Source: Propionivibrio soli
Lineage (GTDB): Bacteria; Pseudomonadota; Gammaproteobacteria; Burkholderiales; Rhodocyclaceae
DNA length: 64,000 bases
NCBI RefSeq assembly: GCF_025770765.1
Contig: NZ_JANZKY010000003.1
Span: 62,001-126,000, forward strand
Direction: 5' to 3'
This document shows, one piece after another, positions 11,299 to 26,147 of the stretch. Made by a program: the position numbers and the translations under genes. The notes beneath the pieces are model-generated. The model worked only from the letters and a program-made list of their open reading frames with translations. It had not been told where the DNA came from and ran no database searches. The stretch's first letter is position 1; every line of letters begins with the position of its first letter.

Positions 11299-12069
11299 AT
11301 GAATGTGCTATCGGGAAAAACGGCGATTGTGACCGGGGCGAGCTCGGGAATCGGTTGGGCAACGGCACGTATGTTCGCCGAAGAAGGAGCGAGGGTCGTC
11401 GTCAGCGGGCGGCGAGCCGAAGCATTGGACCGCCTCGTGGCGGAGATCGAGCGCTTTGGGGGTAAAGCGGCCGCCGTTTGCGGCGACGTGAAGGACGAGT
11501 CGCTGGCAAAGGAGCTGGTAGAGGTTGCCGTTGGTCGTTTCGGCGGTCTGGACGTCGCCTTCAATAACGCTGGAATCGTGGGGGAAATGAAACCGGTGAG
11601 CGAGCTTACTTTTGCGGATTGGAACGCCACCTTGGCGACGAACCTCACCGGCGCGTTTTTCGGGGCGAAGTACCAAGTGCCCGCGATGTTGGCTCGCGGC
11701 GGCGGCTCGATGATCTTTACCTCGAGTTTCATCGGCCATACGGCGGCACTGCCGGGAATGGCCGCCTACGCCGCGAGCAAGGCCGGCTTGGTGGGCTTCA
11801 TGCAGGCGCTTGCTGTCGAGTTGGGCGGAAAGGGAGTTCGCGTTAACGCGATCTTGCCGGGAGGGACCGATACGCCGGCCAACCCAGTCAATGCGCCTGG
11901 CGCCACGCCGGAAGTGAAGTCCTTTGTTACCGGGCTCCATGCCTTGAAACGACTGGCGAGCCCGGAGGAGATCGCACGTTCGGTGCTTCATCTCGCGTCG
12001 GACGCGGCCAGCTTTATTACCGGAAGTGCCTTGATCGTCGATGGCGGCGCCTCGATCAACCGAAGCTGA
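11299..12069 (+). CDS. Short-chain dehydrogenase/reductase (classical SDR)
   Basis: 256 aa. NAD(P)-binding motif TGASSGIG (residues 12-19), the structural NNAG motif, catalytic Ser in FTSSFIGHT, and the YAASK active site Tyr/Lys. Arg in GRR after strand two suggests NADP(H). The C-terminus ends with the family block ASFITGSALIVDGGASI. Start chosen at the second ATG, 6 nt after AGGAG. The substrate is unknown; close relatives are annotated as 3-oxoacyl-ACP or sugar/alcohol dehydrogenases. Confidence 0.92.
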   Translation: MNVLSGKTAIVTGASSGIGWATARMFAEEGARVVVSGRRAEALDRLVAEIERFGGKAAAVCGDVKDESLAKELVEVAVGRFGGLDVAFNNAGIVGEMKPVSELTFADWNATLATNLTGAFFGAKYQVPAMLARGGGSMIFTSSFIGHTAALPGMAAYAASKAGLVGFMQALAVELGGKGVRVNAILPGGTDTPANPVNAPGATPEVKSFVTGLHALKRLASPEEIARSVLHLASDAASFITGSALIVDGGASINRS

Positions 12070-12083
12070 ACCGAAGATGAGAC

Positions 12084-12114
12084 GAAAGGCGGATGCCTCC
12101 GGCAGCCGCCTTTC
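12084..12114. terminator. Bidirectional terminator between SDR and AEC carrier
   Basis: GAAAGGCGG / CCGCCTTTC stem with T-rich flanks on both strands, between two convergent genes. Confidence 0.75.
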
Positions 12115-12120
12115 TCCGCC

Positions 12121-12993
12121 CTACAACCGCAAGGCGAGAGCGATCGGAACGAAGATGATCGCCGATGCGTTGCCGATCATCACGATCGATGCCACCTTGT
12201 CCGGTTCCTGGCCGTAGCGCTCGGCGAGGATGAAATTGGAGACGGCGGAGGGTAGGGCGCTGAAGAGCAGCAGGTAGTCCATGTCCGTGGACGAGATTCC
12301 AGCGAGTTCGCCGAAACCCCAGGCGGCAAGCATGCCGCTCACCGGGGTGATCGCTGCTCCGGCGATGCCGATTCCCCAGGCGTTCAGTTTCGCCATCGAA
12401 AGGCGCACGCCGAGCGAGAAGATCATCAGCCCGAGCGAAATGTCGCCCAGAATCTTTACCGCCGCGGTGATCGGCGGCCAGAGCGCGATGCCGCTCATGC
12501 TCACGGCGACGCCAAGGACGGAGGCGACGACGAAGGGCTCGCGCACGATATCGCCGATGCGCGAACGCCCATTGATCAGCCACGGACTGAGACCGAACTG
12601 CAGCAATGTGACGATCAGCATGAAGACGACCGAGGCGCCTAACGCCGGTTCACCGTAGGCGAGCAACATCAGGGGCATGCCCATGTTGCCGACGTTCTTG
12701 AACATTGCGGTAGGAACCAGGGTGCGCGCGTTGTAGCGCAGCGCCTTCGCGAAGGGCCAGCAGAGGAGTCCGGAAACAAGGGTGACGACAACGGCCCCAA
12801 CGCCGAGAGCGAGATGATCGCCGATGTTGAACGACTTGCTAGAGAGCGCCGAGAACATCAGCGCGGGGAGGAATATCTCGATGTTCAGACGGTTCGCCGC
12901 CAGCATCTCCGGTCGGTGCCTCCGGCCGTAAATAAACGCGAGAAGAACGATGATGAAGATCGGGAATACGATGCCGACGATGCGTAGCAGCAT
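12121..12993 (-). CDS. AEC family transporter (auxin efflux carrier/malate permease type)
   Basis: 290 aa, about ten hydrophobic segments. It opens with VGIVFPIFIIVLLAFIYGRR and has the symmetric FKNVGNMGMPLMLL and FSALPSAVSNFILAERYG segments typical of the family's two crossover helices. Members move dicarboxylates or related organic anions. It lies immediately after the terminator of the catabolic operon on the same strand, so it is probably a separate transcript though possibly functionally linked. Confidence 0.88.
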   Translation of the reverse strand: MLLRIVGIVFPIFIIVLLAFIYGRRHRPEMLAANRLNIEIFLPALMFSALSSKSFNIGDHLALGVGAVVVTLVSGLLCWPFAKALRYNARTLVPTAMFKNVGNMGMPLMLLAYGEPALGASVVFMLIVTLLQFGLSPWLINGRSRIGDIVREPFVVASVLGVAVSMSGIALWPPITAAVKILGDISLGLMIFSLGVRLSMAKLNAWGIGIAGAAITPVSGMLAAWGFGELAGISSTDMDYLLLFSALPSAVSNFILAERYGQEPDKVASIVMIGNASAIIFVPIALALRL

Positions 12994-13009
12994 GAATGGG
13001 GCCTCAGAA

Positions 13010-13050
13010 CAAAAAACGCCGCCTCGGCCGGTGAGGCGCGAAGGCGGCGT
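13010..13050 (-). terminator. Terminator closing the eight-gene catabolic operon
   Basis: ACGCCGCCT / AGGCGGCGT stem followed on the minus strand by six T residues. It defines the 3' end of the operon that starts at 23289. Confidence 0.9.
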
Positions 13051-13076
13051 GAAGCGGATCGATGAACCGCGGTCGG

Positions 13077-14030
13077 TCAGGCGTTATTTTGGGCTTTCGC
13101 CTTTTCCTTGACGAGGTCTTCGCAGCGTCCGGCCTTGAGAACGGCGCTCGCTGCCGGGTGGCCGACAAACTCGGCGGCCAGGCGTGCCGTTGCCATCGCC
13201 TTCAAGAGGTCGATGCCGGTATCGATGCCCATCTCGTGCAACATGTGGATCACGTCTTCCGAGGCCACGTTACCGGAGGCCCCCGGCGCGAACGGGCAGC
13301 CGCCGAGGCCGGCGAAAGCACCGTCGAACAGCCGCACGCCGGCCTGGATGCCGGCCACGATGTTGGCCAGCGCCATGTCGCGCGTGTTATGGAAGTGCAT
13401 GACCCATTGCACTTGCGGAAACTTGTCGATCATGTACGCCGCCAGATCGAACACCTGACGCGGGTTTGCCATGCCGGTGGTATCGGAGAGCGACAGCTCG
13501 GTGATACCGAGTTTGACGAAACTCCTCACGACGTTTTCTACTTGTTCGACCGGCACCCGACCTTGGAAGGGGCACCCGAACGATGTCGAGATGGCGCCGG
13601 AAAGCGTCATGCCGTTCTTGGCCGCAAACTCGGCGCAATCGGCAAAGCCTTCGACCATCTTGACCGGCGAACTATTGAAGTTGGCGAGGCAGTGCGCCTC
13701 GCTTGCGGAAACCGTGAGCTTGGCCTTGGTCAAACCCGCGTCGAACGCGCGTTGCACGCCTTTCGCATTCGGGACCAAAGCGCGGTATTCGACGCCGTCG
13801 ACCTTTTTCATGGCGCGGCAGAGCGCGTCGGTATCGGCCATCTGCGGCACGGCCTTCGGATGAACGAAGGCACCGACTTCAATGATCTTTACTCCCGACT
13901 CGACCACGGCGTCGAGAAGCTGCAGCTTCTGTTCAACGGTGGGAATCGTCTTTTCGTTTTGCAGGCCGTCGCGCAGACCAACCTCGCAGAGGGTCACTTT
14001 GGCCGGCCATGCCGGGATCGTATTGGGCAT
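13077..14030 (-). CDS. HMG-CoA lyase-like (pyruvate carboxyltransferase-domain) aldolase
   Basis: 317 aa. TIM-barrel lyase with the HMGL signature EVGLRDGLQNE (metal-binding Asp and Arg), HFHNTRDMALANI (metal His pair variant: classical members read HCHDTYGQALAN) and the glycine-rich loop with catalytic Cys, GGCPFAPGASGNVASED. Such enzymes split a 3-hydroxy-3-alkyl acyl-CoA into acetyl-CoA and a ketone or oxo-acid. The altered metal-loop residues after the His suggest a substrate other than HMG-CoA. Start ATG at 14030 has AAGGA upstream. Last gene of the operon; would release acetyl-CoA or a C-C cleavage product. Confidence 0.85.
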   Translation of the reverse strand: MPNTIPAWPAKVTLCEVGLRDGLQNEKTIPTVEQKLQLLDAVVESGVKIIEVGAFVHPKAVPQMADTDALCRAMKKVDGVEYRALVPNAKGVQRAFDAGLTKAKLTVSASEAHCLANFNSSPVKMVEGFADCAEFAAKNGMTLSGAISTSFGCPFQGRVPVEQVENVVRSFVKLGITELSLSDTTGMANPRQVFDLAAYMIDKFPQVQWVMHFHNTRDMALANIVAGIQAGVRLFDGAFAGLGGCPFAPGASGNVASEDVIHMLHEMGIDTGIDLLKAMATARLAAEFVGHPAASAVLKAGRCEDLVKEKAKAQNNA

Positions 14031-14247
14031 CTTGAATCGTCCTTCAAGTGAGTGAATCAAGCACCGGTGTGAGAGCAAGAAGCTCTTTTGCCGGCTTGGG
14101 GCGAAGGTCGGGAATCGCTGCGCGCAAACGCGAGCCGTTTCCCTTCCGTCAGCCCCGGAATCCGGGTGTTACGCGATAAAAGCGCTGGCAAAGCGGGTGA
14201 TTGCTCACACGCCATGCCAGCCAAGTTACAACAGCACCTAGTTATTC

Positions 14248-15741
14248 TTAGAACGGAGAGTATTGAATCTTTTCCAGTTCCGGATCGAAGAACTCGCCGA
14301 AGAGCTCTTCGTCCGTCATCCAGTCAGGCTTGTCGTACTCGCGCGAAACCCAGGTCACGTTCATGTAGTGATGCAGGTGAATGTTCTCGCTGGTGGCGTT
14401 GCCGGCCCAAGTGCCGCAACCGATCGAGGAGGTCATCGGCATGCCGTTGTTCATGCTGCCGGCATTGGCCTTCGATTGCGGCTGGCGCACCATGATGCGG
14501 CCGACGCGCGCGACCATCGCCAGGCGATGGATGTGCTCGTCGTCGAACGAGAAGATGCCGACCGAGTGCCCGATGCCACCGACTTCATGGATGGCCATGA
14601 TGGTGTCGATCGCGTTCTGGAACTCGCCTTTGTACTTATGGACCGCCAGCAGCGTGGTCAGCTTCTCGCGGCACCAGATGCCCTCAGGCGACTCGTTGTA
14701 GATGCACGTGCCGTGCGAAGCGATGAGGAACTTGCGGTCTTCTCCAATCTCGAAGCCGGCCGCCTTCGCCATGGCTTGCGGGGACAGGGCGACGGTGTCG
14801 GGCAGGCGGTGAAGTTCTTCGTCCCACATGACCTTCTTCACGGCTTCCTGTTCGCTCGGGTTCAGCATGTAACCGCCGACCGCGACCAATTCCTTGAGCG
14901 CGGCATCCCAGATGCTTTCGTGGATGACGATGTTGCCGTCGGCCGAGCAGCCAGAACCGTAGTCGGAAGTCTTCGAACGCATGGTGTTGAAGGCGGCCTT
15001 GTTCAGATCCTTGGCAGCCGTTTCGTCCCAGATCATCGTCGCGTTGCCGGCGCCGACAGCGTAGGCCGGCGTACCCGACATATAGGCACGGCGCACAACG
15101 CCTTGTCCGCCCGTGGCGATGATGAGGTCGCACTTGGTCATCAGTGCTTCGGAGATACCCTTGTTGATCTTGGCCTTGTAGCCGAGGATCTGCACCAGGT
15201 CTTCCGGCGCGCCGACCCGACGCAGGCCTTCGCGCATCAGTTCGCAAGTGCGGCGGCTGGTCTTCAGCGTGCGCGGATGCGGGGAGAAGATGATCGCGTT
15301 GCGCGCCTTGATGGCGTAGATGGCATTGCCGGCCGGGGTGAGGTCAGGGTTCGTCGCCGGGATCACGCAGCCGATGACGCCGACGGGCTTGGCGTACTTG
15401 ACGATCTTCTTCTCGGGGATTTCTTCGATGATGCCGACCGATTTCTCGCGCAAGCAATCGCGCAGAATGCCGCGGATCTTGAAGCGCTTGGCTTCGCGGC
15501 TGATCGGGTCACCGAAGTCGCTTTCCTGGATGCCCATTTCGACGAGTTCATGGAAGGTCTTGGAGTTGGCGACCATCTGAGCCACGGAACGGATCGCGCG
15601 GTCGATCGCTTCCTGGTCCCATTTTTCGAACTCGCGCTGCGCCTTGTCGGCGCGTACGAATGCCTGTTCGACTTCGTCGATCTGGTCCTGGTTAAGCTTC
15701 AGCTCAGCGTAGCGTGCTGGCATGTCGTTCTGTCTGCTCAT
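14248..15741 (-). CDS. CoA-acylating aldehyde dehydrogenase (SauS-like)
   Basis: 497 aa. Aldehyde dehydrogenase fold of the acylating branch related to sulfoacetaldehyde dehydrogenase SauS and the AdhE/EutE group. Seen: PVGVIGCVIPATNP, the Rossmann-side ATGGQGVVRRAY, and the nucleophile Cys265 in DYGSGCSADGN. Oxidises an aldehyde to an acyl-CoA with NAD(P). Start ATG at 15741 with AGAGG 7 nt upstream; ten codons upstream is an alternative without RBS. No SauT ligase or sulfonate gene lies nearby, so the substrate need not be sulfoacetaldehyde. Confidence 0.88.
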   Translation of the reverse strand: MSRQNDMPARYAELKLNQDQIDEVEQAFVRADKAQREFEKWDQEAIDRAIRSVAQMVANSKTFHELVEMGIQESDFGDPISREAKRFKIRGILRDCLREKSVGIIEEIPEKKIVKYAKPVGVIGCVIPATNPDLTPAGNAIYAIKARNAIIFSPHPRTLKTSRRTCELMREGLRRVGAPEDLVQILGYKAKINKGISEALMTKCDLIIATGGQGVVRRAYMSGTPAYAVGAGNATMIWDETAAKDLNKAAFNTMRSKTSDYGSGCSADGNIVIHESIWDAALKELVAVGGYMLNPSEQEAVKKVMWDEELHRLPDTVALSPQAMAKAAGFEIGEDRKFLIASHGTCIYNESPEGIWCREKLTTLLAVHKYKGEFQNAIDTIMAIHEVGGIGHSVGIFSFDDEHIHRLAMVARVGRIMVRQPQSKANAGSMNNGMPMTSSIGCGTWAGNATSENIHLHHYMNVTWVSREYDKPDWMTDEELFGEFFDPELEKIQYSPF

Positions 15742-16034
15742 TACATTTCCTCTCAAAAAAATGCCAACCAAAGAAAAAAACCGATTTGATCCTCCGCCGG
15801 GTTCAGCGCCTCACCGAAACGATACCGGTGACGGGCCGGCCAGAGCCGGCTTTCGCGACGGGTCCCCCTTGCTTTTGTTGTTCCAGCCCTTGTTGCTTCA
15901 TGACCAATGTCCTGCTCATCTGGCCAAATTCCCTAAACGCGGGCGGCAAGCGACTCTGCCGGTGGCGAAACCTATGTGGCGCCGCCCTGGCTGGTGGTCG
16001 CGGCATTGCGGTGCCGCCCCTCAAAAATCAGAAA
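15742..16034. other. Intergenic spacer inside the catabolic operon
   Basis: 293 bases between the shikimate-dehydrogenase-like stop and the aldehyde dehydrogenase start. It contains imperfect GC palindromes near 15835-15855 (GGGCCGGCCAGAGCCGGC). No gene. Confidence 0.4.
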
Positions 16035-16868
16035 TCAGTACGCGATCTTTGCCACCGATCGGAGCTCGTCCGGCGTTGATGTGCCGAAACCAAAGAACTC
16101 GAGATAGGCCGGAATCATTTCAAACAACATGTCGGTGCCGACCTGCGTCGCACAGCCGATCTCGCGCGCCGCTTTGATCAACGGCGTTACTTCCACTTTC
16201 ATCACGACTTCGCCCACGAAGGTCGTCGGCGCCACTCGCGACATGTCAAAAGGCAACGGATCGCCGGGCGTCATGCCGAGGGGAGTTCCGTTGACGATGA
16301 GGTCGTACCCCGTCGGGTCGTTCGATACGAGCGCGACGTCGATATTCGGGTAGTACTGCTTGATTCGAGAGGCCAGGCCATCGGAGGCGGCCAAGTTGGT
16401 GTCGGATAACGAGAGGGCAGCTACGCCCTCGGCGGCCAGTGAAGCGGCGATCGCGCAGCCTACGCCGCCGGAGCCGAGCACGAGGCATCTTGCGCCCTTG
16501 AACTTGAATCCCTTACGGCCCAGGCCTCGCGTGAAACCGGTGCCATCGAACATGTCGGCGAGCAGGGTTCCGTCGGCACGTTTGAGGATCGCATTGGCCG
16601 AGCCGGCGATCTTTGCCGTTGTGGAGACTTCGTCCACCAGGCTGATCGTCGTCACTTTGTGCGGCATGGTGACAAGAGCGCCGTGGACATTGGTAAACCT
16701 GAAAATTACTTTCAGCGCTTCCGCGTAGTCTTCAGCCTTTACCCCCATAGGTACCACCGCGGCGTCGATTCCGTGCTTTTCGAACCATGGGTTGTAAACC
16801 ATCGGGGCACGGAAGCTCTCGGTCGGGTAGCCGATATGAGGAATGAGTTTTGTCTTGCCGCTTATCAT
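16035..16868 (-). CDS. Shikimate dehydrogenase-family oxidoreductase of altered specificity
   Basis: 277 aa. AroE-like two-domain protein: VTMPHK carries the catalytic Lys (about residue 71), DMFDGTGF matches the conserved Asp region, and VLGSGGVGCAIAASL is the NAD(P) Rossmann loop; NGTPLGM is the family's C-terminal signature. The N-terminal Ser-x-Ser-Pro that binds the shikimate carboxylate in AroE is replaced by ESFRAP, so it is probably not a biosynthetic shikimate dehydrogenase. Start at 16868 with GGTAGG upstream. Within the operon it likely oxidises or reduces the imported acid or an intermediate. Confidence 0.82.
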   Translation of the reverse strand: MISGKTKLIPHIGYPTESFRAPMVYNPWFEKHGIDAAVVPMGVKAEDYAEALKVIFRFTNVHGALVTMPHKVTTISLVDEVSTTAKIAGSANAILKRADGTLLADMFDGTGFTRGLGRKGFKFKGARCLVLGSGGVGCAIAASLAAEGVAALSLSDTNLAASDGLASRIKQYYPNIDVALVSNDPTGYDLIVNGTPLGMTPGDPLPFDMSRVAPTTFVGEVVMKVEVTPLIKAAREIGCATQVGTDMLFEMIPAYLEFFGFGTSTPDELRSVAKIAY

Positions 16869-16978
16869 TGTTTTGCCTACCAGTAATTTGATCTGTATCG
16901 ATGAATCCCTGCTCCGGGAGGTCGCGGCGTCCGGTTCTGCAGACGCCGCGATCACCTTTATCGTCCTAGCTCACGGAC

Positions 16979-17986
16979 TTACTTGCGGCCCTTGTCAAGT
17001 TCGGTCTGCAACTGCTTGACGAGATCCGGACCGACGTTGGCGCTGAACTTGTCGATGACCGGCTTGATCTTCGCCCGGATCTTCGCGAGTTCTTCCGCCG
17101 GCAGCACCGTTACCTGCATCGACTTCTTCAGGTTGGCGAGCGACTGGTCGGCCATGGCACGTGCCGATTCACGCTGGAACTTGGTCGCCTCGGCCACCGT
17201 CGACATCAGCATTTCCTGCTCGTCCTTCGTCAGCGCGTCCCACTTCTTCTTGCTCATCACCACCGATTGCGGGTTGTACATGTGGTTGGTGACGGTGAGG
17301 TTCTTCTGCACTTCGTTGAACTTGCTGGTTTCGATCACCGAGAAGGGGTTTTCCTGACCGTCGATGATCTTCTGCTCGAGCGCCGTATAGACTTCGGTGA
17401 AGGGCATCGGGACGGCGTTCGCACCCAACGCGTTGAACGTCTCGATGTAGATCGGCGACTGGATTACGCGGATCTTGAGGCCGGCGATGTCTTCCGCCTT
17501 GTTGATCGGACGCTTGCTGTTGGTCAGTTCGCGGAAACCGAGTTCCCAGTAGGCGAGGTTGATCATGTTTTTCGGCGGCATGAGATCAGCCAGCTTCTTG
17601 CCGAAGGCGCCGTCGAGAATCGCATCGGCTTCCTTGCCGCTTTCAAACATGAACGGGAAGTCGAAAATCGCGAATTCCTTGAGCTGCGACTGCATGATTC
17701 CCGAGTTCATCACCGTGAGGTCGATCGTTCCACCCTGAACGGCGGACAGAACCTGCACGTCACCACCGAGAACGCCGGCCGGGAAGACCTTGAGCGTCAG
17801 CTTGCCGCCGCTCTTCTGCTTCAGGATTTCCGCCCACTTCTCGGCCCCGACGACAGCGGGGTGCCCGGGCGCGCCGGCAGTTGCAAGTCTGAACGTGTGC
17901 TCGTTTACCTGTGCTTGACCCGACGTTACGAGGAACAGACCGAAAAGCGCGGCTGATACCTGTCCAACCAATTTCCTCATTTTCAC
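16979..17986 (-). CDS. dctP: TRAP transporter solute-binding protein
   Basis: 335 aa. GTG start at 17986 (AAGGAG 6 nt upstream) fits better than the ATG two codons on. Signal peptide to about residue 25 (SGQAQ). DctP features: LATAGAPGHPAVVGAEKWAE, the GLKIRVIQSP motif whose Arg forms the salt bridge to the ligand carboxylate, and DGQENPF. The Arg means the imported solute is very probably a carboxylate. Encoded with its membrane subunits. Confidence 0.95.
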   Translation of the reverse strand: MKMRKLVGQVSAALFGLFLVTSGQAQVNEHTFRLATAGAPGHPAVVGAEKWAEILKQKSGGKLTLKVFPAGVLGGDVQVLSAVQGGTIDLTVMNSGIMQSQLKEFAIFDFPFMFESGKEADAILDGAFGKKLADLMPPKNMINLAYWELGFRELTNSKRPINKAEDIAGLKIRVIQSPIYIETFNALGANAVPMPFTEVYTALEQKIIDGQENPFSVIETSKFNEVQKNLTVTNHMYNPQSVVMSKKKWDALTKDEQEMLMSTVAEATKFQRESARAMADQSLANLKKSMQVTVLPAEELAKIRAKIKPVIDKFSANVGPDLVKQLQTELDKGRK

Positions 17987-18104
17987 GTTTCTCTCCTTAT
18001 ATAAAGGTCCCCGAGGAGACCGACTTACAACACGACCACTTAACGTTGCTGCCTTCGTTATCGCGTGCCGATTGGCAACCTCTTCGGCTTTCGCTATTTG
18101 TGAC

Positions 18105-19388
18105 TTAAGACAGGAACCACTTCATCGGTAGCAGCACGAGGTCCGGGAAGATGACCAGCAGTGCCAGCACGACCAATTGGGCGCACATGAAGGGCCAGAC
18201 ACCGACGATGACGTCGTCCATCTTGACCTTGGAGACGCCGCATACGACGTTGAGCGTGGTACCTACTGGAGGCGTGACCAAACCGATTGCGTTGTTGATG
18301 ATGAACAGCACGCCGAAGTACACCGGATCGATACCGGCGGCGACCATTACCGGGACGAGCACCGGGGTCAGGATCAGGATGGTCGGCGTCATATCAAGCG
18401 CTGTGCCGACGATCACCACGATCACCATCACGGCAACCATGAGCAGGATCTTGTTGCCCATGAACGGCTTGAGCATCGCAATGACTTCCTGCGGGATCTC
18501 GGCGATGGCGATCAGCCAGGCGGAGACGAGAGCGGCGGCGACAAGGAACATGACGATGGCCGCCGTTTGTCCGGCTTGTGCGAGCACGCTGTACACCTGT
18601 GACCACTTCAACTCCTTATAGACATAAATGGAGACGAAGAGGGCATAGACGGCGCAGACGACACCGGCTTCGGTTGGAGTAAAGATGCCGAACTTCAACC
18701 CGAAGACGAGGATGCCAGGCATCACCAGCGCCCACAGACCTTCGCGGACCGCTTGGGCGACTTCCTTGGCCGAAGCGCGCTTGCTTACTTGCAGGTTGGT
18801 ATGACCACGGGCCACCCACCACCAGGCAACGGTCAATCCGAGCGCGATCATGATGCCCGGGACGATGGCGGCGACGAACAGCTTGGTGATCGAAAGGCCG
18901 GCGGTGACGCCGAACAGGATGATGTTCGGGGATGGAGGAACCATCGGACCGATGATGCTGCCTGCCGCAATCAAGCCCGCTGACTTCTCGGGGTTGTAGC
19001 CCGACTTGACCATCATCGGGAAGAGCAGAGCCGACATCGCGGCCGCATCGGCCGCGGCGGAGCCGGACAACGAGGCAAGAATGCACGAAGCAACGATGAC
19101 CACATAGCCCAAACCGCCCGGGATGTGGCCGACGAGCGTGACGGCGACGCGGATGATGCGCTTGGACAGGCCGCCGGCGTTCATCGTCGTTCCGGCGAGC
19201 ATGAAGAACGGAATGGCCATCAGCGGGAAGCTGTCGGCGCCATTGATGAGGTTCTGGGCAATGATCTGCGAGTCGAACATGTCCAGGTGCCACATCAGCG
19301 CGACGCCGCAGGCGATCAGGGAAAACGCGATCGGCATGCCGAGCGCCATGGCACCCAAGAGTGCCGTGATGAATACTGTTACGGTCAT
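18105..19388 (-). CDS. dctM: TRAP transporter large permease subunit
   Basis: 427 aa, about 12 transmembrane segments. DctM signatures: FSLIACGVALMWHLDM, PLMAIPFFMLAGTTMNAGGL, the SGSAAADAAAMSALLFP motif and PPSPNIILFGVTAGLS. Forms the sodium-coupled transport channel with DctQ and receives the solute from DctP. RBS GAGGGGA. 16 nt after dctQ. Confidence 0.95.
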   Translation of the reverse strand: MTVTVFITALLGAMALGMPIAFSLIACGVALMWHLDMFDSQIIAQNLINGADSFPLMAIPFFMLAGTTMNAGGLSKRIIRVAVTLVGHIPGGLGYVVIVASCILASLSGSAAADAAAMSALLFPMMVKSGYNPEKSAGLIAAGSIIGPMVPPSPNIILFGVTAGLSITKLFVAAIVPGIMIALGLTVAWWWVARGHTNLQVSKRASAKEVAQAVREGLWALVMPGILVFGLKFGIFTPTEAGVVCAVYALFVSIYVYKELKWSQVYSVLAQAGQTAAIVMFLVAAALVSAWLIAIAEIPQEVIAMLKPFMGNKILLMVAVMVIVVIVGTALDMTPTILILTPVLVPVMVAAGIDPVYFGVLFIINNAIGLVTPPVGTTLNVVCGVSKVKMDDVIVGVWPFMCAQLVVLALLVIFPDLVLLPMKWFLS

Positions 19389-19403
19389 GACTTCCCCTCT
19401 AGC

Positions 19404-19997
19404 CTAATTCTTGCCGTCGCTGGACAGCTTCGTGTTTTTCATCTCCAGTTCCATCTCGTTCTGGAGTTCCCTGATTTCGTCTTCTTCGAGGTCTTCTTGC
19501 GATTCCTTGACCTGGATGAGTTCGCTGTCCTTCACCTTGCCGGCCAGCATCGCGTACAGGTCGTAGAGCAGGATCAGGAAGGCGGTACCCGAGAAAAGGA
19601 TGCCGGTGCCGTAGAAGAATCCGGAGGAGAGGCCCGTGGCGGGCGCTTCAACGTCAATGTTGATGATCGTTTGCAACCAGGCTCCGCGCATGAACAACAC
19701 GCAGCAGCCGAGCATGATCAGGTTGCTCAATACATAGCAGATCTTCTTGCCGATGACCGGCAGGCGGGACACGATGGTGTCCATACCGAGGTGAGAGTGC
19801 TCGCGCAATGCGGTCAGGGCGCCGATGAAGGTAAGCCACACGAAGCACCATCGGGACAGTTCCTCGGAGGCCGTGATCCCCGAATTGAACCCGTATCGCA
19901 GGACAACGTTGCCGAAAACAAGCACCACCATCGTCGATATGCAGACGACGACGGCAAACTTGAGCAAGCGGAAATACCAATCAACCAGGCCAGTCAT
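19404..19997 (-). CDS. dctQ: TRAP transporter small permease subunit
   Basis: 197 aa with four predicted membrane helices and the DctQ markers RYGFNSGITASEELSRWCFV and REHSHLGMD. The C-terminal ~35 residues are an unusually acidic cytoplasmic tail (QVKESQEDLEEDEIRELQNE). RBS AAGGAAG before the ATG. First of the three TRAP genes. Confidence 0.93.
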   Translation of the reverse strand: MTGLVDWYFRLLKFAVVVCISTMVVLVFGNVVLRYGFNSGITASEELSRWCFVWLTFIGALTALREHSHLGMDTIVSRLPVIGKKICYVLSNLIMLGCCVLFMRGAWLQTIINIDVEAPATGLSSGFFYGTGILFSGTAFLILLYDLYAMLAGKVKDSELIQVKESQEDLEEDEIRELQNEMELEMKNTKLSSDGKN

Positions 19998-20538
19998 GTT
20001 GTCTTCCTTGAGTTTGAGAACTGCTTACAAAATGGGCGTTGCCGACGTCCGGCCAGCCGGGCATGACTGAACGCTGGCGCGACGCGTTTCCGCGCTGAGC
20101 CAGTTGCTCCTGCCATGCCGGTTGGTGGGCGCTGGGTGCTGGTTGCTTCCTGATTTCGCTGGGCCGATCTCCTTTTGGCCCGCGTTCATGTCGGGGTTCG
20201 CCCTGGTCTTGCGGCCAGGTGTCCCGCCAATGATGCAATCCGGCATCCCACCGGGAATGCTACTCCCAGAACCGAAATACGGGTGGATTGACGGATGCCG
20301 CGGGTGGTTGGCGGCCGACGGGCGGCCTGCCTGGTGTCCACCGTTATACGATGTGCCACTCGAATTGCATGCTTCAGCCATTTTTGATAGCGCGCAGTGC
20401 ATCGTTTTGCTCCCTCGTCCTGCCGTCAGGCGCGGCGCTTGGCCGGCCCCCGGTTCGAAGTGCTGGCACGTTTTCCTGGCTTTGATCTACAGGAAAAGTC
20501 CCATTCCATCGAACCACCCTCCGTCTCGTTGTTTTTTT
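19998..20538. other. 540-base gap inside the operon
   Basis: Between the isomerase stop and dctQ. Open frames exist on both strands but none shows coding character. No terminator seen, so read-through is possible; the length suggests a second promoter for dctQMP, though I cannot locate it. Confidence 0.5.
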
Positions 20539-21360
20539 CTAGACGTGTTTTATATGTGCTGCCGCATACTTCTTGGCCGATTCGATGCAACGGAATGCGT
20601 GCTCGGCGTAGCCGAATTCCTTGGCTCGCGCGATGTTCGGCAATTCAATCGAATAGACCATTTTCGGCAGGCGATTCAGAATGTCGGCCACATCGATTCC
20701 TCCTTCGCCGACATACAGACGCGCTTCGCGAAGCACACGCTTGATCTCTTCAATGTCTTCGGGAATCTCGGCCGACGCGTCGCACAGATGGGCGAAGTGG
20801 AACCACTCACGCGGCAGGCCGTCGAGATCCGTCGCCTTGTCGCGTGCGCGATGGAAGTGATGGACGTCGATCATGAGTCCGGCATTTGACCGGTTGGCCG
20901 TACGCAATACATCCACGGAACCAGCCAAGGTCCGGACGCCGGCGATAGGCACAAATTCAAGATCGACGGTCAGACCGAAGGGCTTCGCCAGATCGCAAAT
21001 GTCACCGAATTTCTCGATCGCGTACTCGCGGTTGGTCGTCCAGATGCTGGACAAGACCGCCTTGGCGCCGAGCTCTGCGGCCACTTCCATGGCCGGGAGA
21101 TACTTGGTCGGATACATGTCGTCGTAGACGCGCGCCAATTCGATGTCATGCACTTTGACGCCGGTATCTGCGAGCGCGCGCTTGGTCTGGCGCAACATCT
21201 CGGGATTGTCGGCGAGCGCGTAGTTGGGTTCGCCGGGAAGCCCCATATAGATCAAGCGCGGACTGATGTAGTCGTATCCGGCACGCGCTGCCACATAGAC
21301 CATCTCCGGCGGTGGACACCCGAGCACCGTCAGGTGAGCGAGTGAGAATTCCAAGGCCAT
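20539..21360 (-). CDS. Sugar phosphate isomerase/epimerase (AP-endonuclease-2 TIM barrel)
   Basis: 273 aa. Xylose-isomerase-like TIM barrel: VDLEFVPIAG (metal Glu), IDVHHFHRA (metal Asp/His), FAHLCDASAE and VGEGGIDVADIL (terminal Glu). Enzymes of this fold isomerise or epimerise hydroxy-oxo compounds or dehydrate acids (for example 3-dehydroshikimate dehydratase, hydroxypyruvate isomerase). Start ATG preceded by AGGAG. Second gene of the operon. Confidence 0.88.
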   Translation of the reverse strand: MALEFSLAHLTVLGCPPPEMVYVAARAGYDYISPRLIYMGLPGEPNYALADNPEMLRQTKRALADTGVKVHDIELARVYDDMYPTKYLPAMEVAAELGAKAVLSSIWTTNREYAIEKFGDICDLAKPFGLTVDLEFVPIAGVRTLAGSVDVLRTANRSNAGLMIDVHHFHRARDKATDLDGLPREWFHFAHLCDASAEIPEDIEEIKRVLREARLYVGEGGIDVADILNRLPKMVYSIELPNIARAKEFGYAEHAFRCIESAKKYAAAHIKHV

Positions 21361-21522
21361 GCATTCTCTCCTATTATCCTTGTTGCTGCAGTGCGCTATG
21401 AGACGTCCGCGCAGTCCCTCTTTCTTGCGCTTTGTTGCGGTCCCGGTGTCTTGTGCGGCCCCACGACAAGCCGTACTCGGACCGGGACCGTTCCACCAAC
21501 AAAACGCCCCGTACCGACGAAC

Positions 21523-23289
21523 TCAGTCGTCGGTCGAAACGTGATGCACCTTCTTGCCCGGCGAGTAGATGTCCATGATGTTCCAGTGCCCGGCGGTTGG
21601 CGTCGGGATGTTCTTCATGTACACGTCGATGACCACCGGCTTTTTCAAGGCAATCGCTTTTTGGATTGCCGGAAGGAGTTCTTCCGCCTTCTCGATCGTG
21701 ATGCCCTCAATACCGTAGGCACGGGCGATCGCGGCATAGTCTGGCGAATAGGTTTCGCCGTCGACTTCGAAGACGGTGCCGAACGTTGTGTTGTAGTGGG
21801 CCTTTTCGAGACCGGCGATGGTGCCGAAGGCGTGGTTGTTCATGATCACCCAGATCACCGGGATGTTGCTTTCCTTGGCGGTCGCCAGCACGGCGGGGTT
21901 CTGGCCCCAGCCACCGTCACCGACTAGGGCAACGACAACCTTGTCCTTCAGCGCGATCTTGGCGCCCATGGCCGCCGGCGATCCGAAGCCCATGGTGGCA
22001 AAGCCGCCCGGGGTGAAGATCGAGCCCGGCTCGTACACCGGATACTGCTGGGCGAGGCCGTTCTTGTTCCAGCCGACATCGGTACAGATATACGAGTCAT
22101 GCGGCAGCGCCTTACGCAGATCGGCGAGGATGCGCTGCGGCGTCATCGGGAACGCGTTGCTTTCGACCCATTCCGTGTTGCTTTCGACGAAGGCCTTGCG
22201 GTTCGCCGCCATCTCGGCGACCAATTGCGGGCGCTTGACGCCTTGCGGGCAGAGTTTCTTGGCCACGCGCAACAAGACCGTCAGGGCTTGTTTCAAGTCG
22301 GCGACGGCGCCGATTGCGGCCGGATAGTTGCGGCCGATCTCGGCCGGGTCGATGTCGATGTGAATGAGCTGCGTGGGTGGGAAGTTGAACGTGAATTCGG
22401 GCTCCCAGGAGCTGCAGTCGGCTTCGGAGAAGCGCGTGCCGAGTCCGAGAATCCAGTCCGCGCCCTTGCACTTCTCGTTGATGAACTTGGTGCCCCAGAA
22501 ACCGGTCATGCCGAGGATCAGAGGGTGGTCGTCGGGCAGGGCGCCTTTGCCCATCAGGGTATGGGCGACTGGCAGTTGCAGATGCTCGGCAAACTCGCGC
22601 ATTTCGGTCGTCGCATCGGCCAGCATGATGCCGCCGCCTACGTACATGACCGGCGTTTTCGCGGCGAGAAGCTGCTTGACGATCTTCTCGGCCGTTTCAT
22701 CGTCCATCGACGGCTTGGCCAGCTTGCGCGTGTTCTTCAGCACGCGATCGAACAATTCGACGTCGATCTCCTTCGAGAAGATATCCATCGGAACGTCGAT
22801 GAGCACTGGGCCGGGGCGGCCGCTCTCGGCGAGAATGAACGCTTTTTCCAGGATTTCCGGGATCAGATGCACGGAATCGACACGCCACACGCGCTTGCAG
22901 AACGGACGGTAGATCTCGCACTGCGAGGCATCGGCGTGCAGGTTGACTTCCTGGTGCGGATGCTTGCCGTAATAGTGTGTCGGAACGTCCCCGGCGATGA
23001 CGACCAAGGGGATCGAATCGAGCGAAGCATTGGCCACGCCGGTACAGGCATTGGTCAGACCCGGAGACAGGTGGGATAGCACGACGGCCGCCTTCTTGGT
23101 GGCGCGGGCATAACCGTCGGCCATGTGGGCGGCGATTTGTTCATGACGCGTATTGACGAAGCGGATCTTCTTGCTCTTTTCGAGCGCCGCGAGCACGGCA
23201 ATGTTGGTGTGCCCGCACAGACCGAAGATGTGCTCGACGCCGCGTGCTTCGAGATAACGCACCAGCTGATTGGATACCAGGTCTTTCAT
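21523..23289 (-). CDS. Thiamine-diphosphate enzyme (acetolactate synthase-like family)
   Basis: 588 aa three-domain ThDP enzyme. Catalytic Glu50 in NTRHEQIAAHMADGYARA; ThDP/Mg site GDGGWGQNPAV through NN in the C-terminal domain. The usual FGYPGG loop is FGLCGHTNIA, a variant shared by an uncharacterised subgroup. Could decarboxylate a 2-oxo acid or join/split C-C bonds to give an aldehyde for the acylating dehydrogenase. AAGGAG precedes the ATG at 23289. First gene of the operon. Not IlvB: no small subunit is present and the active-site loop differs. Confidence 0.85.
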   Translation of the reverse strand: MKDLVSNQLVRYLEARGVEHIFGLCGHTNIAVLAALEKSKKIRFVNTRHEQIAAHMADGYARATKKAAVVLSHLSPGLTNACTGVANASLDSIPLVVIAGDVPTHYYGKHPHQEVNLHADASQCEIYRPFCKRVWRVDSVHLIPEILEKAFILAESGRPGPVLIDVPMDIFSKEIDVELFDRVLKNTRKLAKPSMDDETAEKIVKQLLAAKTPVMYVGGGIMLADATTEMREFAEHLQLPVAHTLMGKGALPDDHPLILGMTGFWGTKFINEKCKGADWILGLGTRFSEADCSSWEPEFTFNFPPTQLIHIDIDPAEIGRNYPAAIGAVADLKQALTVLLRVAKKLCPQGVKRPQLVAEMAANRKAFVESNTEWVESNAFPMTPQRILADLRKALPHDSYICTDVGWNKNGLAQQYPVYEPGSIFTPGGFATMGFGSPAAMGAKIALKDKVVVALVGDGGWGQNPAVLATAKESNIPVIWVIMNNHAFGTIAGLEKAHYNTTFGTVFEVDGETYSPDYAAIARAYGIEGITIEKAEELLPAIQKAIALKKPVVIDVYMKNIPTPTAGHWNIMDIYSPGKKVHHVSTDD

Positions 23290-23922
23290 CAAATGCTCCT
23301 TCAGTCGTAAGTCTCGCGGCCGTCATGGCCGATTCTTTGTGTTCTAGTCCTACAACCGGCATGGCGTGCCGCGTGATCGCGCTGGCGGCGTCGTGTCGGA
23401 CGGCTTTGGGGACGGGTCGATGAAGCGAAATCGGAAACGACCCGGCTCCTTCTGTCTCAGTGCGGCCTTCTCGAACGCTGAAATGGACGGGGCTATTGAT
23501 TTTGTATCCCCGGTTCCCTCTTTTCGTCGTTCCCGGTAATCCCGGTGCGCCGTTCTTGTTTGCACTGGATGATAGGCCGCGCCATGGGGACGTCCAGACA
23601 GCCGTTCTTGCTTTTGCGCGATATTCGCGCGTACTTGGGCGATTATCGCGCGTATTTAAGGCTGGTCGCGGAACGTTGGATTTTGTGAAGGAGCCACCCT
23701 AACCCATTCTTGAAAAAGGGTTTTTGTTTGGGCGACGGCTGGCAGGCGAACTGTTCCACGTAAGCGAGACGTAAGACTGGCGCCGTCAAATCCTCGGGCC
23801 GCATATGGCTTTTACGGCCGGTGGAGAACTTCCGGGCGGCGTCGAGAGTCAAGTAGCCGTCGCGACGTGGCTCGCGCTGCGCCGCCAATACGCCGTCAGG
23901 CATCGCACAAGGAGAAGAGACT
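23290..23922. promoter_or_regulatory. Divergent promoter region with tandem palindromes
   Basis: 633 bases between the catabolic operon and acs. A perfect 15-base palindrome GCGCGATATTCGCGC (23616-23630) is followed by a related GCGATTATCGC (about 23640-23650); each is followed by a CGCGCGTA-type sequence, giving two phased copies. They are placed to control acs, the operon or both. A weak AACCC/GGGTT hairpin with T-run is near 23701-23725. No gene seen. Confidence 0.5.
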
Positions 23923-25887
23923 ATGTCCGAGAACGGGTCAACGCAGCTGTTTCAACCGCCAGTCGATTTCGTCAAGCAGGCGACGATTTCCGGCATGGGG
24001 GCTTACGAGGCGCTTTGCGCCGAAGCACGTTCCGACTACACCGGTTATTGGGCGCGTCTGGCGCGCGAGCATGTGACGTGGAAAGAGCCGTTTACACAGG
24101 TCCTCGACGAAACGAACGCTCCCTTCTTCAAATGGTTTGCCGACGGCAAGCTGAACGCTTCGTATAACTGCCTCGACCGGAACATCGAGGCCGGTCTGGG
24201 TGACAAGGTCGCCATTCTTTCCGAGACGGATGACGGCGCCTTGCGCAGCGTCACCTACAAGCAGCTTCTCGCGCGCGTTTGCCAGCTTGCCAACGGCCTG
24301 CGGGCGCGCGGCATCAAGAAGGGCGACCGCGTCATCATCTACATGGCGATGGGTATCGAGGGCGTCGTCGCGATGCTGGCTTGCGCCCGCATCGGCGCCA
24401 TCCATTCCGTTGTCTTCGGAGGCTTTTCTGCGCAATCGGTTCGCGACCGCATCAACGATGCCGGCGCCGTCGCCGTGCTGACGACCGATGAGCAATGCCG
24501 TGGCGGCAAGAAGCTTCCGCTGAAACCGGCGGTCGACGAGGCTATCGCGCTCGGCGGTTGCGAAACGGTGAAAACGATCGTCGTCTTCAAGCGCACCGGC
24601 GGTGAGTGTGCGATGGTGCCGAGTCGCGACGTGTGGTGGGACGACGTCGTTGCCGGCCAACCCGAGCAGTGCGACCCCGAATGGGTCGAAGCCGAACACC
24701 CGCTGTTCCTGCTCTACACGTCGGGTTCGACGGGCAAGCCGAAAGGGGTTCAGCACTCGACGGCCGGCTATCTGCTGCACGCGATCGTGACCACCAAGTG
24801 GACCTTCGATCTCAAGCCACACGACATCTTCTGGTGTACGGCCGATATCGGCTGGATTACCGGACACACTTACGTGACGTATGGTCCGCTGGCGTGCGGC
24901 GCCACACAAATGGTTTTCGAAGGCGTGCCGACCTATCCCGATGCGGGACGTTTCTGGAAGATGATCGAGACGCACAAGGTCAGCATCTTCTACACCGCAC
25001 CGACAGCGATCCGCTCGCTGATCAAGGCGGCCGACACGACTCCGGCGGTGGCGCCTACCAACTACGACCTTTCGTCGTTGCGCCTGCTCGGCACGGTGGG
25101 CGAGCCGATCAACCCGGCCGCCTGGCTCTGGTACTACAACAACGTCGGCGGAGGACACTGCCCGATCGTCGATACCTTCTGGCAAACCGAGACTGGTGGG
25201 CACATGATCACGCCGCTTCCGGGCGTGACACCGATGGTGCCGGGGTCATGCACGCTGCCGTTCCCCGGCATTGCGGCGACAATCGTCGACGAAACCGGCA
25301 CCGAGGTGCCTCCTGGTAAAGGTGGGCTCTTCGTGGTCACCAAGCCGTGGCCGTCCATGATCCGGACGATCTGGAACGACCCGGAGCGTTTCAAACGCTC
25401 GTATTACCCCGACGACTTCCAGGGCCGCTATTACCTGGCCGGCGACGGCGCCGTGCGCGATGCGACGACAGGTTACTTCACGATCACCGGGCGTATCGAC
25501 GACGTGCTCAACGTGTCGGGACACCGTCTGGGAACGATGGAGGTCGAGTCGGCGCTCGTTTCGCATCCGATGGTGGCCGAGGCTGCTGTGGTTGGCCGCC
25601 CCGATGACCTAACGGGGGAAGCGATCTGCGCGTTCGTCGTGCTCAAGGGCGCGCGCCCGGTCGGAGAGGCGGCGGCGAAGACCGTCAAGGAACTGCAGGA
25701 TCACGTCGCGAAGGCGATCGGCGGCATCGCCAAACCGAAGGACATCCGCTTTGGCGAGAACCTCCCGAAAACACGTTCGGGCAAGATCATGCGGCGCCTG
25801 TTGCGTGCCCTGGCCAAGGGTGAGACGGTGGCACAGGACGTGTCCACGCTCGAGAATCCAGCGATCCTCGAGCAACTGCGTGCCTGA
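23923..25887 (+). CDS. acs: Acetate--CoA ligase (AMP-forming)
   Basis: 654 aa. Activates acetate to acetyl-CoA via acetyl-AMP. Adenylation motifs: [11 protein letters not shown] (A3), [28 protein letters not shown], and [15 protein letters not shown]. The C-terminal catalytic lysine lies in [11 protein letters not shown], the normal acetylation site for Acs. Full usual length. Ends in a strong terminator; divergent from the catabolic operon and followed by the acetate-symporter module. Confidence 0.96.
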
Positions 25888-25907
25888 CGGGGTTTAGGCT
25901 ACCACCG

Positions 25908-25955
25908 AGGCATAAAGGGGCAGGGCGGAGAGCCCAGCCCCTTTATGCCTTTGCG
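25908..25955 (+). terminator. Rho-independent terminator of acs
   Basis: Perfect 14-bp stem AGGCATAAAGGGGC / GCCCCTTTATGCCT with a 15-nt loop, followed by TTTG. Confidence 0.85.
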
Positions 25956-26147
25956 TAATAGGCAGGAGCACAACAGCGGTATGCTCGCTGCTGTTTGCGA
26001 CGGTTGAATCGGCGAGACACAAGCCTCGGAGAAGCGGCGCTGAAATACCGACGCGAGCCAGCGGAATCCGTAAAATGTGGGGGCATCCTTGCCAACGAGG
26101 GATGCTGTGACGGGTTGGGTCGAAGTTCCTCGGCATCGAGAACAACC

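Follow-up and report, generated by a model that had tools for sequence, protein, structure and literature searches.

A conserved bacterial gene module proposed to degrade quinate by opening its ring without aromatisation

The acids quinate and shikimate abound in plants, and in the gut quinate is released from chlorogenic acid. Among the enzymes of the closest described systems, QuiC and AsbF take the C4 proton and then the C5 hydroxyl of 3-dehydroshikimate, IolE dehydrates keto-inositol, and IolD and cyclohexane-1,2-dione hydrolase are thiamine pyrophosphate (TPP) enzymes that hydrolyse a cyclic 1,2-dione. Fermenting bacteria that degrade hydroaromatic compounds were reportedly published in 1992 and 2002, to judge from titles in reference lists, and we know of no pathway for them. 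Here we describe eight genes in a stretch of 64,000 nucleotides from Propionivibrio soli (contig NZ_JANZKY010000003.1, positions 62,001 to 126,000; this whole stretch is the window below), and we hypothesize that they probably form an operon that degrades quinate without aromatising it, and also shikimate where a dehydroquinate dehydratase is added. One Propionivibrio species is reportedly named in print, in a reference-list title, as a specialist for hydroaromatic compounds, which we count in favour of the quinate reading.

In order from the divergently transcribed acs gene, the eight genes encode a TPP-dependent enzyme, a xylose-isomerase-like TIM barrel, the subunits DctQ, DctM and DctP of a tripartite ATP-independent periplasmic (TRAP) importer, an AroE-like dehydrogenase, an acylating aldehyde dehydrogenase (ALDH) and a 3-hydroxy-3-methylglutaryl-coenzyme A (HMG-CoA) lyase-like (HMGL-like) enzyme (Table 1). 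A sequence-only reading of the window had seen here a catabolic operon of eight minus-strand genes, starting opposite acs and supplying a full path from an imported acid to CoA esters. All eight open frames were found, the divergent neighbour is acs (AcsA model, 944 bits against a cut-off of 725), and the reading as a catabolic operon stands. The path to CoA esters is supported by comparison of genomes, which shows its five enzyme families conserved as a set across distant phyla.

A single scan of genome contigs with the window ALDH gave 50 loci, whose open reading frames (ORFs) were compared by Blast with the eight window proteins; many of the contigs end early. In 42 of the 50 the ALDH is 71-89% identical to that of the window. 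Relatives of the HMGL-like enzyme lie near it in 39 loci, of the TIM barrel in 38, of the TPP enzyme in 37 and of the AroE-like protein in 31, and all four stand beside the ALDH in 28. Of the 18 loci flanked by 8 kb or more on either side, 15 contain all five enzyme families and 12 at least two TRAP subunits. The exceptions are L031 (Sedimentibacter), where the TIM barrel, TPP, TRAP, AroE and HMGL genes lie about 39 kb away in the same genome; L042, with no TPP or AroE match; and L075, an outgroup whose ALDH (40% identical) falls outside the clade although it was counted among the 50. The module spans Proteobacteria and Clostridia, with Sedimentibacter, Acidaminobacter, Lutispora, Anoxynatronum, Peptoniphilus, [Eubacterium] yurii and Propionivibrio dicarboxylicus among the named hosts; further hosts are the Xanthobacteraceae isolate 'Astr-EGSB' and many metagenome-assembled genomes (Lachnospiraceae, Oscillospiraceae, Tissierellia, Accumulibacter and others), several of them from gut or rumen. 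The named genera are mostly anaerobes. Gene order varies between host groups, and the co-occurrence is therefore not simple synteny: the same families do recur together in other genomes, often with TRAP genes, as the sequence-only reading had suggested looking for, but not in the same order.

Matches to the TPP enzyme at E ≤ 1e-150 are patchy. Within the window's own family they occur in one of 101 genomes, and in a class-wide draw in one of 369, in both cases the window genome itself; the corresponding counts are 4/98 in the family of genome G143 and 1/28 in that of G152. Because of this distribution, the module may have spread by horizontal transfer. In P. dicarboxylicus (L033), a TPP gene cut by the contig start, the TIM barrel, AroE, AroQ, TRAP and ALDH genes share one contig that ends at the ALDH. 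This species has two ALDH copies (L033 7313-8790 and L034 9959-11487), each running into a contig end; a repeat may have broken the assembly here, with the module lyase lost in the break.

That the module is linked to quinate or shikimate appears quite likely from the dehydroquinate dehydratases found beside it. A tblastn search (E ≤ 1e-6) covered 56 loci (866 kb), namely the 50 together with L079, L080, L092, L093, L094 and L100, and detected a 3-dehydroquinate dehydratase in nine of them, from about six lineages: AroD in four and AroQ in five. AroD and AroQ are unrelated in sequence and fold. The type I enzymes (AroD; L029, L049, L060 and L068) score 172-226 bits, all above the TIGR01093 cut-off of 139, and in L029 and L049 the gene immediately precedes that of the TPP enzyme. 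Three of the type II enzymes (AroQ) exceed the TIGR01088 cut-off of 170 (L080, 181 bits; L033, 190 bits; L076, 174 bits), while those of L079 and L092 are 72-78% identical to a tested AroQ or to one of their own genome. In P. dicarboxylicus the aroQ gene lies inside the module, between the AroE and DctQ genes. By a rough estimate, at two to three copies per genome of 3-4 Mb, chance would place AroD or AroQ in about 0.5 loci. As controls on the same 56 loci, E. coli AroA, AroB and AroC gave no match by tblastn and AroK gave two (L060 and L068). We put weight on AroD and AroQ because two unrelated families recur in about six lineages; adjacency alone proves little, as is seen in nine Lachnospiraceae/Clostridiales loci (L036-L039, L041 and L043-L046) with a HisF motif upstream of the module, whose genes probably serve histidine biosynthesis and belong to the neighbourhood of one group, probably unrelated to the module.

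Quinate carries hydroxyl groups at C1 (with the carboxyl group), C3, C4 and C5, and the route that we propose would start with its import, or that of shikimate, by the TRAP system, with DctP as the putative binder. The AroE-like enzyme would oxidise C3 of quinate with NAD(P) to give 3-dehydroquinate; shikimate would enter at this point where a 3-dehydroquinate dehydratase is added. Acting as a 3-dehydroquinate 5-dehydratase, the TIM barrel would remove the C5 hydroxyl and yield 1-hydroxy-3,4-dioxocyclohexane-1-carboxylate, a 3,4-dione that does not aromatise as such because its C1 is quaternary. The TPP enzyme would hydrolyse the C3-C4 bond to 2-hydroxy-2-(2-oxoethyl)glutarate, the ALDH would turn the aldehyde of this compound into the thioester homocitryl-CoA, and the HMGL-like enzyme, as a homocitryl-CoA lyase, would release acetyl-CoA and 2-oxoglutarate. 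The net reaction would be quinate + CoA + 2 NAD(P)+ -> acetyl-CoA + 2-oxoglutarate + 2 NAD(P)H, without oxygen, ATP or a CoA ligase, and its carbon balance closes (7 C = 2 + 5). In the IolD reaction the acid arises from the carbonyl next to the new CH2, and the aldehyde from the other one. This regiochemistry would place the aldehyde where the β-hydroxy thioester is needed, homocitryl-CoA being a tertiary β-hydroxyacyl-CoA fit for an HMGL-type enzyme, whereas the opposite regiochemistry would leave such a lyase with no substrate. We regard this closure of the chemistry, an argument and no measurement, as the strongest argument for the detailed route. The hydroaromatic fermenters are said to make acetate and propionate (or butyrate) with no aromatic intermediates, as would be understandable if acetyl-CoA and 2-oxoglutarate were the products.

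We stress that we infer the substrate, order and product of every step; for the full route as written we hold a modest preference. The sequence-only reading had named no substrate, and quinate, or shikimate by way of dehydroquinate dehydratase, can now be proposed as one. We lean only just towards the most inclusive version of the hypothesis, in which a non-aromatising, inositol-like pathway ending in a homocitryl-CoA lyase, and needing neither oxygen nor ATP, has spread horizontally among anaerobes of gut, rumen and sediment and also among some proteobacteria.

The window TPP enzyme scores below the cut-off of all 25 NCBIfam models shown of 53, including acetolactate synthase (TIGR00118, 439.5 bits, cut-off 538) and IolD (TIGR04377, 250.1 bits, cut-off 715). 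Ten aligned module TPP enzymes carry the motif FGLCGHT, which has its Gly-His in common with the FGHGN of IolD (as taken from the IolD rows L095-L097 and L004), and two acetolactate-synthase-like paralogues have Gly-Gly at that position. A ring-opening hydrolase is more likely than a decarboxylase, which revises the earlier assignment to C-C chemistry or decarboxylation.

The HMGL-like enzyme reaches 325.3 bits on PRK05692, passing its cut-off, and R36, D37, D199, H228, H230, C261 and N270 are invariant in 26 HMGL sequences. We take these to be the catalytic residues of HMG-CoA lyase (R36-D37 catalytic, H228 and H230 metal-binding, C261 in the loop, and N270). In a tree of the 26 sequences, 21 of the 22 module members group together, apart from four non-module lyases, with weak support (82/63); the exception is the lyase of L035, placed on a long non-module branch. 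The Arg that follows HxHxT in the lyase was considered as a mark of an extra substrate carboxylate, an idea dropped because 1ydo and 6nds share it.

The window AroE-like protein (P0003) reaches 137.8 bits at best, against 252, and lies below every aroE cut-off shown. In an alignment of 18 AroE sequences (the window protein and 17 from the loci, including the extra AroE of L060), K100, N121 and D137 (P0003 numbering, start at 16955), presumably the catalytic Lys, Asn and Asp of AroE, are invariant. By motif count, 15 of the 37 module AroE proteins (the window's and 36 of the loci) retain the S-x-S-P sequence, whose serines we take to bind the carboxylate in shikimate dehydrogenase. The module AroE of L060 passes TIGR00507 (213 bits, cut-off 200), and in L079 the AroE place is held by a canonical shikimate dehydrogenase (PRK12549, 416 bits, cut-off 235), of which L092 and L094 have copies 98% identical.

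Several observations weigh against quinate as the substrate, or against the steps proposed for it. The window AroE-like protein has SFRAP in place of S-x-S-P, as the sequence-only reading had noted, with the catalytic Lys, Asn and Asp retained; counting it and 21 of the 36 others, 22 of 37 lack one or both serines. No dehydroquinate dehydratase was seen in 47 of the 56 loci, many of them cut short by a contig end, and on the window contig there is no AroD or AroQ match. The window genome has one AroD and two AroQ on other contigs: the AroD gene (L078 8552-9334, plus strand, G000:C13) has no quinate genes seen beside it, and of the AroQ genes (L081 1501-1914 and L082 1501-1914) one follows a DctP-like and the other an AroE-like gene, both named by eye. 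One or more of these may serve the operon in trans. In the Clostridia loci L060 (5218-6039) and L068 (1328-2203), shikimate-kinase-like genes with a chorismate-mutase-like start, below curated cut-offs, lie directly upstream of AroD, and because of this AroD may be biosynthetic there. The TPP enzyme scores 439 bits as an acetolactate synthase against 250 as IolD, and the IolD model gives 256-261 bits to three further TPP enzymes of the order that are not IolD. A module-type HMGL was not found in G143, G152, G733, G750 or P. dicarboxylicus (G868), the best candidates being 41-46% identical; read by eye, their neighbours include a CaiB-like gene in G868 and G152, leucine-degradation-like genes in G143 and neither in G750. 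The last step in these hosts would occur in trans or be done differently. Finally, since 1ydo and 6nds also carry HxHxTR, this motif is no mark of a new substrate.

The missing serines and the 47 loci that show no dehydroquinate dehydratase would fit a different hydroxylated carbocyclic or branched acid, which would pass through the same kinds of reaction (oxidation, dehydration, C-C cleavage, acylation and retro-Claisen cleavage), with AroD, AroQ and AroE as neighbours through shared enzyme ancestry or a side substrate. We consider this rather unlikely. Against it stand the recruitment of dehydroquinate dehydratases of two non-homologous kinds, in about six lineages, and the S-x-S-P kept in the same slot in 15 of 37 proteins; moreover, the lyase needs a tertiary β-hydroxyacyl-CoA, which the carbons of quinate supply exactly.

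The quinate hypothesis also has to be compared with the conventional route, through 3-dehydroshikimate to protocatechuate, and this comparison involves the TIM barrel (P0007). The barrel has no NCBIfam match at E ≤ 0.001, including QuiC (NF042435). Its AlphaFold2 model (pLDDT 95.7) has as nearest Foldseek neighbours among solved folds Lmo2234 (TM 0.84), IolI (0.82) and 5hmq (0.76); IolE follows at rank 21, and rank 47 is AsbF, whose entry bears the title of a probable 3-dehydroshikimate dehydratase. E135, D165, H191, E239 and R214 are invariant in 30 module TIM barrels, aligned without L080 and L094, and H168 is nearly so; the L094 barrel, like 5hmq, has Gln as its third metal ligand. The metal ligands of barrels of the IolE/IolI/QuiC kind are two Glu, one Asp and one His or Gln, and the modelled fold with E135, D165, H191 and E239 places the module barrel among them. 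In a profile search E135, D165, H168, H191 and R214 align onto residues of 5hmq, which we take to be QuiC1, a fusion protein and 3-dehydroshikimate dehydratase, with the matching positions presumably its metal ligands, base and carboxylate contact. The earlier proposal of an isomerase keeps its family (PF01261, xylose-isomerase-like), but with a fold like those of IolI and 5hmq a dehydratase of the IolE/QuiC kind is more likely.

A barrel that folds like 5hmq and AsbF could thus be a 3-dehydroshikimate dehydratase, the TPP, ALDH and HMGL-like enzymes serving something else. L080 also holds AroQ together with a QuiC-like TIM barrel, which matches the QuiC model in its N-terminal part with 134 bits (far under the cut-off of 1200, which is set for 635 positions), and an IclR regulator that passes the PcaR/PcaU/PobR cut-off (294 bits, cut-off 285). 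The presence of both barrels in L080 argues, however, that the module barrel is not simply QuiC, the TPP, ALDH and HMGL genes travel with it across phyla, and dioxygenase ring cleavage is unavailable to the many named hosts that are anaerobes. In the window cluster, the aerobic set of dehydroquinate and dehydroshikimate dehydratases is absent. Aromatisation to protocatechuate as the main route is therefore improbable, and we rejected it because these three genes would have no role.

Among named families SauS scores best for the ALDH, and together with an Xsc-like TPP enzyme this could indicate sulfonate metabolism by way of sulfoacetaldehyde dehydrogenase. We rejected this very improbable reading on its scores, the ALDH giving 393.1 bits on SauS (NF047625, cut-off 600) and the TPP enzyme 314 bits on sulfoacetaldehyde acetyltransferase (cut-off 620). 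Beside the modules no sulfonate or leucine genes were noticed, among neighbours that were partly named and with no systematic sulfonate search. The labels 'SauS-like' and 'HMG-lyase-like' of the sequence-only reading are right as family names.

The intergenic gaps, counted from the end of the HMGL-like gene, are 217, 293, about 110, 118, 15, 541 and 162 bp. The 541-bp gap between the DctQ and TIM barrel genes (19998-20538) measures about 5 bp in the close relative L029. Promoter-like sites are rarer than in shuffled sequences (1 against 3.6), terminator-like sites are at chance level (14 against 13.8 ± 4.1 in shuffles), and an Rfam scan of 12000-26000 gave no element at its gathering score. 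The strong terminator of the earlier description does exist as a hairpin followed by T6, but because such sites are no more frequent than in shuffles it is a candidate only. As for the 'one unit' claimed there, a single transcript is plausible. That the genes are separately transcribed chance neighbours, as the gaps of up to 541 bp and the lack of any promoter or terminator class above chance might suggest, is scarcely credible, since 15 of the 18 fully flanked loci, which come from other genomes, hold these five enzymes too. Among the eight proteins, only the HMGL-like enzyme, DctP and DctM pass curated cut-offs of the NCBIfam models shown.

Table 1. Features of the proposed operon in the window.
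Feature	Position	Strand	Remarks
TPP-dependent enzyme	21523..23289	-	588 aa from ATG at 23289; three TPP-enzyme Pfam domains
Xylose-isomerase-like TIM barrel	20539..21360	-	273 aa; PF01261
TRAP small permease DctQ	19404..19997	-	PF04290 89.8 bits, cut-off 28.3
TRAP large permease DctM	18105..19388	-	TIGR00786 462 bits, cut-off 268
TRAP solute-binding protein DctP	16979..17986	-	TIGR00787 263 bits, cut-off 175
AroE-like dehydrogenase	16035..16868	-	277 aa, ATG at 16868 is the start in close relatives; PF08501
Acylating aldehyde dehydrogenase (ALDH)	14248..15741	-	497 aa; SauS model 393 bits, below cut-off
HMG-CoA-lyase-like (HMGL-like) enzyme	13077..14030	-	317 aa; PRK05692 325 bits, cut-off 246
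Candidate intrinsic terminator after the last gene (HMGL-like)	13020..13038	-	6-pair stem, then T6

Other genes were observed near modules in individual loci. The Sedimentibacter module of L100 (6476-10086) adjoins genes that by eye resemble those of an electron-transfer flavoprotein and a GlcD-like FAD dehydrogenase, perhaps a 2-hydroxyglutarate or lactate dehydrogenase acting on the 2-oxoglutarate branch. In Peptoniphilus faecalis the module is followed by a PrpB-like gene (L073 18996-19865; methylisocitrate lyase family, 212 bits, below the cut-off of 354). A Gfo/Idh/MocA-type oxidoreductase occurs near the module in seven loci (L050 1386, L053 1364, L055 19195, L062 5281, L065 1, L068 5506 and L071 1), forming one cluster of related ORFs of which the L068 member alone was compared with Pfam; for a related substrate it might take the place of the first dehydrogenase. 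Between the AroE and HMGL genes of L030 (6392-8491) lies a 699-aa esterase-like protein with a weak PHB-depolymerase/esterase match (43 bits, cut-off 150), perhaps a quinate-ester hydrolase.

Physiological background was taken from passages or reference-list entries of PMC4462926, PMC11966751 and PMC10054779; in the part of PMC10054779 consulted, quinate use is predicted solely as a chorismate precursor. No paper found by title or abstract start describes such a pathway, in a search that mostly left out subscription journals, so that publication elsewhere is possible; likewise, the sequence-only reading's statement that no named pathway has this gene set agrees with the literature searched, in no paper of which does 'homocitryl-CoA' appear. 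To our knowledge three to four of the activities (dehydroquinate 5-dehydratase, carboxylated dione hydrolase, acylating dehydrogenase of the aldehyde, and the lyase) have no Enzyme Commission entry, and if the route is true they would be new to that list. The cluster offers a gene-level, stepwise and testable answer for hydroaromatic fermentation: gut, rumen and sediment anaerobes probably use quinate and shikimate by ring opening without prior aromatisation. Gut and rumen genes otherwise called acetolactate synthase, shikimate dehydrogenase, HMG-CoA lyase and sulfoacetaldehyde dehydrogenase would then be re-annotated.

The nearest analogy is myo-inositol catabolism (IolG, IolE, IolD), in which a ring hydroxyl is likewise oxidised, a metal-dependent TIM barrel dehydrates the product to a 1,2-dione and a TPP enzyme opens the ring by hydrolysis. 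The proposed pathway differs from it in importing an acid by a TRAP system, in using an AroE-like enzyme instead of a Gfo/Idh dehydrogenase, in a TPP enzyme that is not IolD by its score, and in an aldehyde that would go to a CoA thioester and retro-Claisen cleavage rather than through IolB, IolC and IolJ. With the aerobic quinate/shikimate pathway (quinate dehydrogenase, AroD/AroQ, QuiC/AsbF and Pca) it would share the first step to 3-dehydroquinate, the accessory AroD or AroQ and a related TIM barrel fold; however, no aromatic intermediate is proposed here, the products would be acetyl-CoA and 2-oxoglutarate, and none of the eight genes encodes an oxygenase. Cyclohexane-1,2-dione hydrolase (2pgn) belongs to the same TPP superfamily (171.7 bits) and opens a 1,2-dione ring by hydrolysis, but the closer solved relatives of the window enzyme are BbmA and acetolactate synthases, and the 2pgn substrate is without the carboxyl group and tertiary hydroxyl. 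SauS shares family and reaction type with the window ALDH, which remains below its cut-off. The last enzyme has the family and catalytic residues of HMG-CoA lyase and homocitrate synthase; it differs from HMG-CoA lyase in its proposed substrate, homocitryl-CoA, and in the separate if weakly supported grouping of the module members, and its proposed reaction is the condensation of homocitrate synthesis reversed.

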